Shown: positions 22,677 to 27,856 of the stretch, one piece after another
Layout of the letters: the number at the start of each line of letters is the position of its first letter
Numbering within the stretch: position 1 is the stretch's first letter
NCBI RefSeq assembly: GCF_011089895.1
Contig: NZ_JAANAT010000001.1
Span: 1,364,001 to 1,428,000, forward strand
DNA length: 64,000 bases
Direction of reading: 5' to 3'
Source of the DNA: Mucilaginibacter inviolabilis
GTDB taxonomy: Bacteria; Bacteroidota; Bacteroidia; Sphingobacteriales; Sphingobacteriaceae
The notes under the pieces: generated by a model
What the model saw: the letters and a program-made list of their open reading frames with translations, nothing else
What the model was told of the DNA's origin: nothing
Database searches by the model: none
Program-made: the position numbers and the translations under genes

Positions 22677-22749
22677 GTCATGCTGAGCTCCGTCGAAGCA
22701 TGGTGGGCAGGGCCTCTGCGCTCTACCCTTCGACGGAGCTCAGGGTGAC
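22677..22749. repeat. GTCAT...GTGAC palindromic repeat, CTCCGTCGAAG type
   Basis: A 73-bp imperfect palindrome beginning GTCATGCTGAGCTCCGTCGA and ending with the complement (TCGACGGAGCTCAGGGTGAC). Its outer words match the GTCATCCTGAG family at 27 kb, but the inner stem differs. It is intergenic and non-coding. Confidence 0.8.
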
Positions 22750-26945: not shown

Positions 26946-27032
26946 ATGCAAATATAATAATCCCCGCGGCCCTCAGAAGGCAGAGTTATAAAATTTATGT
27001 AAAGTTTTTTGGGAGGAGGATTTCTACCTTCT

Positions 27033-27123
27033 GTCATCCTGAGCGTAGCGAAGGATCTATTAACGAACTATGCAAACTGCAATAAAAGACGTAGAATAGA
27101 TTCTTCGCTATGCTCAGAATGAC
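27033..27123. repeat. GTCATCCTGAG...CTCAGAATGAC palindrome, copy A
   Basis: A 91-bp imperfect palindrome. The left half carries GTCATCCTGAGCGTAGCGAA then GGATCTATT, and the right half carries AGATTCTTCGC then TATGCTCAGAATGAC. It lies 144 bp downstream of the GIY-YIG gene stop. Confidence 0.85.
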
Positions 27124-27158
27124 AAGAATATTTTTTTAGATCATAATCTGAAAAGTTT

Positions 27159-27246
27159 GTCATCCTGAGGAACGAAGGATCTATTACTGAACTATGCTAA
27201 CTATAGGAAAAGTAAAGAGTAGATTCTTCACTACGTTTAGAATGAC
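27159..27246. repeat. GTCATCCTGAG...TTAGAATGAC palindrome, copy B
   Basis: An 88-bp copy of the same family as copy A, in the same orientation. It ends 20 bp from the stop codon of the GIY-YIG gene. The inner loop differs from copy A at several positions. Confidence 0.85.
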
Positions 27247-27266
27247 CAGACACTTTTGGTTATAGT

Positions 27267-27590
27267 TTAGCCAGTAAATACTGGAGGCCATTCCATAATT
27301 TCCTTATTCAGAAAATCCCAACTTTGGTTTTCCACCTCAATTAGTTTTACCTTTTTCTCCCTCGTCCAGCCTGTAATCTCCTTTTTACGTTCAATAGCAT
27401 GATTTATAAATTGGTGCCGCTCAAACCATACGAGATAATAACATTTATACTTTGAGGTGAAACTTTCAGCTTGTCTAACACCAAAATAATGCTCGTACAA
27501 TCTTTGATTTAAATCGTTAGTTACACCAGTGTATAATACCGTTTTATTATAATTTGTAAGGATATAGGTAAAAAAGTTATACTGGCTCAT
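27267..27590 (-). CDS. GIY-YIG endonuclease domain protein
   Basis: A 107-residue single GIY-YIG domain. The two signature strands are 'FTYILTN' and 'VLYTGVTNDLNQRLYEH', with the catalytic Arg in the latter. 'YYLVWFE' and 'AIERKKEITGW' complete the fold, the latter carrying the Glu expected to hold the metal. Stand-alone proteins of this size are grouped with UvrC/Slx1-like nucleases, and their cellular role is not established. The gene is bracketed on both sides by copies of the GTCATCCTGAG palindrome (A and B downstream, a half copy and copy D upstream), which may bear on its function. Confidence 0.88.
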   Translation of the reverse strand: MSQYNFFTYILTNYNKTVLYTGVTNDLNQRLYEHYFGVRQAESFTSKYKCYYLVWFERHQFINHAIERKKEITGWTREKKVKLIEVENQSWDFLNKEIMEWPPVFTG

Positions 27591-27643
27591 CTTATAGATG
27601 AATATACAAATTTACACCTATTTAAAGGAATATGGCGTAGAAT

Positions 27644-27669
27644 AGATTCTTCGCTACACTCAGAATGAC
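27644..27669. repeat. Half copy of the GTCAT palindrome (right half only), copy C
   Basis: Only the right half of the family, AGATTCTTCGC followed by TACACTCAGAATGAC, is present. It begins 54 bp upstream of the GIY-YIG start codon. No left half precedes it, which suggests truncation. Confidence 0.75.
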
Positions 27670-27696
27670 AAAAATATTTTATACTTAAAAAAGCTT

Positions 27697-27786
27697 GTCA
27701 TCCTGAGGAACGAAGGATCTATTAACGAGCTATACAAGCCGGAAGAAAGGGCGTATAATAGATTCTTCGCTGTCGCTCAGAATGAC
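27697..27786. repeat. GTCATCCTGAG...CTCAGAATGAC palindrome, copy D
   Basis: A 90-bp full copy of the family, in the same orientation as copies A and B, upstream of the GIY-YIG gene. The left half lacks the CGTAG insert seen in copy A, as does copy B. Confidence 0.85.
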
Positions 27787-27856
27787 AAAAGAAGGTAAGA
27801 AAAAGATGTGTAAAAGGATTTGCTTTATCACTCCCCCCTTCAGGGAGCTGGGAGCC

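Follow-up and report, generated by a model that had tools for sequence, protein, structure and literature searches.

What ties a lone, small nuclease gene to the palindromes that stand on both sides of it? The question arises at one locus of the soil bacterium Mucilaginibacter inviolabilis, within a stretch of 64,000 nucleotides that was analyzed as a whole (the window). A sequence-only reading had noted a solitary 107-residue GIY-YIG gene with two full palindromes on one side and a half copy plus a full copy on the other, a layout that it likened to REP palindromes beside RAYT transposases. The gene was recovered in the open reading frame list with a Pfam match, the layout was reproduced with coordinates right to within 2 bases (Table 1), and the likeness to REP/RAYT loci was supported by the finding that GTC-tagged REPINs bracket the nuclease gene. 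With at most one mismatch, GTCATCCTGAG occurs nine times in the window, where shuffling predicts 0.66 copies and none of 100 shuffles reached as many. We consider it likely (probability about 0.72) that the locus is a REP-associated GIY-YIG cassette of the Ssn type, that is, a small nuclease gene bracketed by the hairpin for which it is or was specific and spreading by cutting that hairpin. The window copy, which carries the substitution E69K, is probably the defunct remnant of such a cassette, amid about 213 type-A hairpins.

Table 1. Features of the nuclease locus, in window coordinates
Feature	Position	Strand	Arms or basis
rpe-hp94 intergenic gap, recipient of the cassette	26952..27856	.	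gap lengths compared across relatives
REPIN a, inverted pair of type-A REP hairpins, 91 nt	27033..27123	+	arms 27033-27056 +, 27100-27123 -
REPIN b, second inverted pair, right arm diverged	27159..27246	+	arms 27159-27180 +, 27223-27246 -
GIY-YIG nuclease gene, 107 aa	27267..27590	-	ORF list and Pfam PF01541
Codon 69, AAA (Lys) instead of Glu	27384..27386	-	alignment of 113 domains
Lone REP arm ("half copy")	27646..27669	-	single-hairpin detection
REPIN c, inverted pair	27697..27786	+	arms 27697-27718 +, 27762-27786 -

Each arm of these palindromes is a hairpin of its own, with a GTC tag, a 5-bp stem beginning with A-T, and a short loop (GTC-ATCCT-GAGCGTAGCGA-AGGAT). At the sixth base, arms vary among C, T, and G, a variation that produces a mismatch in the long palindrome but is compensated inside the arm. 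Because the variable stem pair was Watson-Crick in 174 of the 189 nonredundant type-A units (CG in 67, GC in 62, and TA in 45), against about 61 expected from base make-up, the selected unit is the hairpin of about 24 nt (REP), and the palindrome is a REPIN, an inverted REP dimer. A strict search for full-length palindromes overlooked most copies, since the arms differ, and single-hairpin detection was used instead. Across the 7.15-Mb genome, the exact 11-mer GTCATCCTGAG is present in 117 copies and its reversed control in none. The full type-A hairpin was found 213 times, and hairpins of the TCGAAG, TGCGAG, and TTCGA types were found 114, 180, and 34 times, all with zero matches to the reversed-pattern controls; in total, the genome holds more than 500 GTC-tagged hairpins of several types. 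As single-stranded DNA, REPIN a was computed to fold at -25.9 kcal/mol (z = -8.5) and REPIN c with a z value of -3.3, while the diverged right arm of REPIN b reads GTTTAGAATGAC.

The single-domain protein of 107 residues matched the GIY-YIG family of Pfam (E = 9e-9; 35.9 bits, with a cut-off of 22.6). Its AlphaFold model (pLDDT 91.5) retrieved 1zg2 (UPF0213) as the best Foldseek match, followed by Slx1, and 1zg2 was also found by profile search (E = 7e-14); searches of PADLOC, PHROGs, and NCBIfam gave no matches. Alignment with relatives showed that Y9, Y20, R30, and H34 are kept, the first three being the conserved Tyr/Tyr/Arg of the GIY-YIG superfamily, and the clade is, as judged from sequence, a nuclease family. 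In fold and active-site residues it is like both UPF0213/YhbQ/YazA and Slx1, but no GTC-REPs were found within the 3.2-kb loci of the Bacillus subtilis yazA and Escherichia coli homologues examined. By established knowledge of GIY-YIG enzymes, the conserved Glu is catalytic, and residue 69 is Glu in 112 of the 113 aligned relatives but Lys in the window copy. The codon is GAA in M. lappiensis and in strain SG564, and a single G-to-A change separates it from the AAA of the window copy. With Lys in place of the catalytic Glu, the window nuclease is therefore probably inactive. Of the earlier suggestion that the nuclease may recognize or move these repeats, the relation to the repeats stands as a specific and clade-matched link, and an active enzyme in the window copy is not supported. 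In SG564, the nuclease copy is shortened near its C terminus by a frameshift, and stops were present in about 27 of the approximately 155 matches listed. Birth and decay of this kind are compatible with selfish elements.

The association with REPs extends to the other stand-alone GIY-YIG genes of the genome. Six GIY-YIG matches were found, four of them stand-alone and two of the long UvrC type; each of the stand-alone genes has REPs no farther than 300 bp away (three of the four have them on both sides), and no REPs were found near the two long genes. The repeat type differs by gene, being type A at the window gene, TCGAAG on both flanks of L058 and L059, and TGCGAG at L060, which has two REPINs on one side only. 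At positions 22677-22749 of the window there is a further REPIN, which matches in type those around L058 and L059 but stands alone, with no adjoining nuclease.

Two outcomes that would speak against a link had been named beforehand, repeats equally dense away from GIY-YIG genes and GIY-YIG genes rarely near repeats, and neither was found. Around 33 GIY-YIG genes (27 loci from other genomes plus the window's genome), hairpin units reached 2.0/kb within 600 bp, compared with 0.18/kb farther out. A unit lay within 300 bp of 27 of the 34 nuclease genes in one set (L031-L063; both sides in 18/34) and within 350 bp of 27 of the 29 in a Mucilaginibacter set (both sides in 18/29) that came from a separate search and shares a few species with the first. 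Among control genes of the same loci, 84/777 had a unit within 300 bp and 11/777 had units on both sides (Fisher P values for proximity of 6e-19 and 9e-23, respectively). In a de novo test that used no motif, repeats common to the two flanks were detected at 84 of 94 stand-alone GIY-YIG genes versus 18 of 400 controls. Two arrangements of repeats and gene came up repeatedly across the loci: at 19 loci the innermost plus and minus units flank the gene as if it lay inside one REPIN, and at 12 loci the gene is flanked by two complete REPINs. Since only 16 of 59 stand-alone genes in a phylum-wide sample were near GTC-REPs, the rule is valid for branches of the family. Some clade members (L138 and L155) had no REP by the strict test, and no GTC-REPs were found at alphaproteobacterial plasmid homologues.

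Hairpins of the sequence GTCAT[CTG]CTGA flank nucleases of the window clade, GTCATTTCGA hairpins flank those of its sister clade within the genus, and GTCATTGCGA hairpins flank those of Pedobacter relatives. When the repeat labels were mapped onto a tree of 113 domains, 20 changes were needed, versus 65.7 for shuffled labels. By the sequences compared, the hairpin stem tracks the nuclease clade, and enzyme and repeat appear to go as a pair. The same pairing was seen in repeat abundance across 100 Mucilaginibacter genomes, in which clade membership was assigned by identity to the window protein. Median numbers of type-A repeats were 29 with and 8 without a window-clade nuclease (P = 1.2e-4), and 9 versus 14 by sister-clade presence (P = 0.40), while TTCGA repeats gave medians of 25.5 versus 3 by sister-clade presence (P = 3.9e-5) and 13 versus 7 by window-clade presence (P = 0.38); these Mann-Whitney P values are optimistic and indicative, as the genomes share ancestry. 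The result is a double dissociation: the presence of either nuclease clade predicts how abundant its own repeats are, but not how abundant those of the other clade are. Some genomes (G112, G102, and G080) carry many type-A repeats yet have no window-clade nuclease. The presence in one genus of several nuclease clades with their own hairpin types and matched abundance offers ready-made enzyme/substrate pairs together with noncognate controls for work on recognition, cutting, and spread.

The history of the site was read from its neighbors, which we take to be rpe and a small conserved gene (hp94) adjoining pnp, names that we assigned from their sequences. Among the loci examined, a nuclease gene occupies the rpe-hp94 site only in the window's genome, M. 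lappiensis, and SG564 (G082), and relatives that are 64 to 77% identical lie at different sites in other species. The gap measures 103 to 283 bp and is nuclease-free in six relatives, versus 787 bp in SG564 and 908 bp in the window's genome. It is empty in four relatives, holds a solo REPIN that starts at approximately the position of the cassette start in G140, and holds a lone arm at about the same place in G112. From these comparisons, the cassette is evidently an insertion at the rpe-hp94 site, where no clean target-site duplication or exact junction was readable. In the 327 to 400 kb compared with SG564, the alignable intergenic sequence was too scant to read junctions of solo REPINs. The two genomes also differ at a shared intergenic gap, which is occupied by a type-A REPIN in SG564 (G082:C1:950259) and by a palindrome of the TGCGA type in the genome of the window (G000:C1:1269400-1269800).

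The individual repeats at the site differ in age. REPIN a has an orthologue in M. lappiensis and SG564. REPIN b is absent from both, although by rpe identity the window's genome is closest to SG564 (93% versus 91%), and on these grounds it is a recent, derived gain in the window's genome. Because REPIN b with its left spacer resembles the block found across the gene in SG564, it may have arisen by local copying from the opposite flank. The lone arm is kept in all three genomes and so is, on this distribution, ancestral rather than the fresh product of cutting that the sequence-only reading had taken it for.

How such a cassette would spread can be outlined in conditional terms, with mobility resulting from nuclease action. 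An ancestral, active nuclease would have bound the folded single-stranded REP hairpin beside its GTC tag and then cut it. REPINs would then reach new intergenic sites through repair templated by a different copy, or through strand or template switching between hairpins, and occasionally the whole REP-nuclease-REP unit would be copied in the same way. Solo REPINs would be the nonautonomous form (or an unoccupied site), and the autonomous form would carry the nuclease. Homing endonucleases are found among the GIY-YIG enzymes, as are structure-specific nucleases such as Slx1, which makes a cut-and-copy mechanism plausible. If it is true that the nuclease moves the repeats, bacteria would possess a second way to build up REPIN families, one that needs no transposase. 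We hold more tentatively, and with some doubt, a broader view in which GTC-type REPINs are unoccupied homing sites or nonautonomous forms of minimal mobile elements, each a GIY-YIG gene in a cognate hairpin pair. Such elements would spread without a transposase through cutting of folded single-stranded DNA and copying by repair, and a sister branch would do likewise with tRNA genes as its hairpin sites.

A cassette that spreads by cutting has to be weighed against a nuclease that stays in place. In this unlikely but not negligible alternative, the enzyme serves its host as a resident factor and tunes recombination, DNA uptake, or gene expression by cutting or binding REPs, and the nearby repeats are regulatory, with nothing mobilized. 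The Neisseria Ssn nuclease is said to act in natural transformation and not in transposition, and nearby REPs could regulate genes; however, the close relatives occupy different places in different species, the gene reads as an insertion at the rpe-hp94 site, nuclease genes decay frequently (the stops counted above), and REPIN copies have been gained. Much less probable is a scenario in which a RAYT (Y1) transposase moves the REPs, among which the nuclease gene happened to land as a passenger. The layout is REPtron-like and the genome has five Y1_Tnp (RAYT-type) genes, but no GTC-REP unit was found within about 1.5 kb of any of the five, whereas 4/4 lone GIY-YIG genes have REPs, and a passenger leaves both the clade-by-clade stem matching and the double dissociation unexplained. 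We give hardly any credence to a reading of the REPs as ordinary terminator or mRNA-stability hairpins of intergenic regions, of which a small gene in a roomy gap has more nearby. The repeats are indeed intergenic and fold strongly, but about 5 to 11% of the other genes at the same loci, small ones included, have them near and about 1% have them on both sides, and the excess beside nuclease genes is specific and clade-matched.

Among known systems, the closest to the proposed cassette is, by analogy, Ssn/NTS of Neisseria, where a pairing of GIY-YIG and REPs has reportedly been described. The Ssn family GIY-YIG nucleases (Neisseria, 2025) are said to cut their own dispersed repeat (NTS), which, as a further likeness, reportedly begins with GTCATTC and ends with GAATC, and to have a role in natural transformation. 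This would contradict the earlier statement that the nuclease family is not established in such a role; our literature search found no paper connecting GIY-YIG to REPs. As in that system, a small stand-alone GIY-YIG nuclease is tied to a cognate palindromic repeat that is scattered through the genome hundreds of times, and there are many homologues of different specificities. The Mucilaginibacter case differs in that the repeats are joined as REPINs, in that a single genome houses several nuclease/repeat types side by side, and in that the gene travels with the repeat on its flanks or around it. The REPIN organization and the cassette mobility are possibly the new part.

The likeness to RAYT/REP/REPIN systems (REPtrons) lies in the tagged palindromic repeats, spread through the genome as inverted pairs, that flank the gene and in the codivergence of enzyme and repeat, as is also found for TnpA-REP (PMC8266576). 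Membership in that group was rejected: the enzyme belongs to the GIY-YIG nucleases and not to the HUH Y1 transposases, the tag is TGTC (GTC) and not GTAG, and 0/5 Y1_Tnp loci have GTC-REPs. CGTC-tagged REPs, which include Neisseria dRS3 (CGTC-1), were reported by Di Nocera et al. (2013, PMC3733652) from five phyla including Bacteroidetes; they form inverted dimers and, according to that paper, seem to have no transposase dedicated to them. They are described as having a CGTC/TGTC tag, A-T as the first two stem pairs, a stem of 8 to 9 bp, a loop of 4 to 5 nt, and a CCA tail (PMC3733652). The window units read TGTC-AT...AT and thus have a CGTC-type tag and A-T first stem pairs, although one REPIN b arm is preceded by G and not T. 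Their stem has five Watson-Crick pairs, a GA/GA step at which tandem sheared G-A pairing may occur, and then one or two further pairs, and their tail is CTA where CGTC-tagged REPs have CCA. Unlike CGTC-tagged REPs as described (PMC3733652), the Mucilaginibacter repeats are linked to a GIY-YIG nuclease.

A separate stand-alone GIY-YIG branch (support 100/86) directly adjoins tRNA genes. In the phylum-wide sample, a tRNA lay within 200 bp of 18/64 GIY-YIG genes versus 2/878 control genes, always on the same strand, upstream in 14, and for many amino acids; tRNA-like copies were often present on the far side of the gene. The loci of this branch are L073, L076, L086, L087, L090, L112, L114, L115, L118, L119, L121, L123, L126, L127, and L129. 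Clusters of GIY-YIG genes were also observed. At positions 1986-4749 of L110 (G053:C34:5000-12000), eight GIY-YIG genes stand in tandem with a period of about 365 bp, each spacer carrying a repeat like a tRNA 3' end. L116 (G053:C31:264000-276000) holds three near-identical copies within 7 kb with long shared flanking repeats, in a genome with 25 GIY-YIG matches. Outside Bacteroidota, three GTCATTCTGAGTGAAACGAAGAAT hairpins bracket a GIY-YIG gene on a plasmid of the cyanobacterium Planktothrix agardhii (L231, NZ_LR882964.1, 17347-20604; Cyanobacteriota), where the gene is placed between an MmeI-type restriction enzyme and DISARM drmA.
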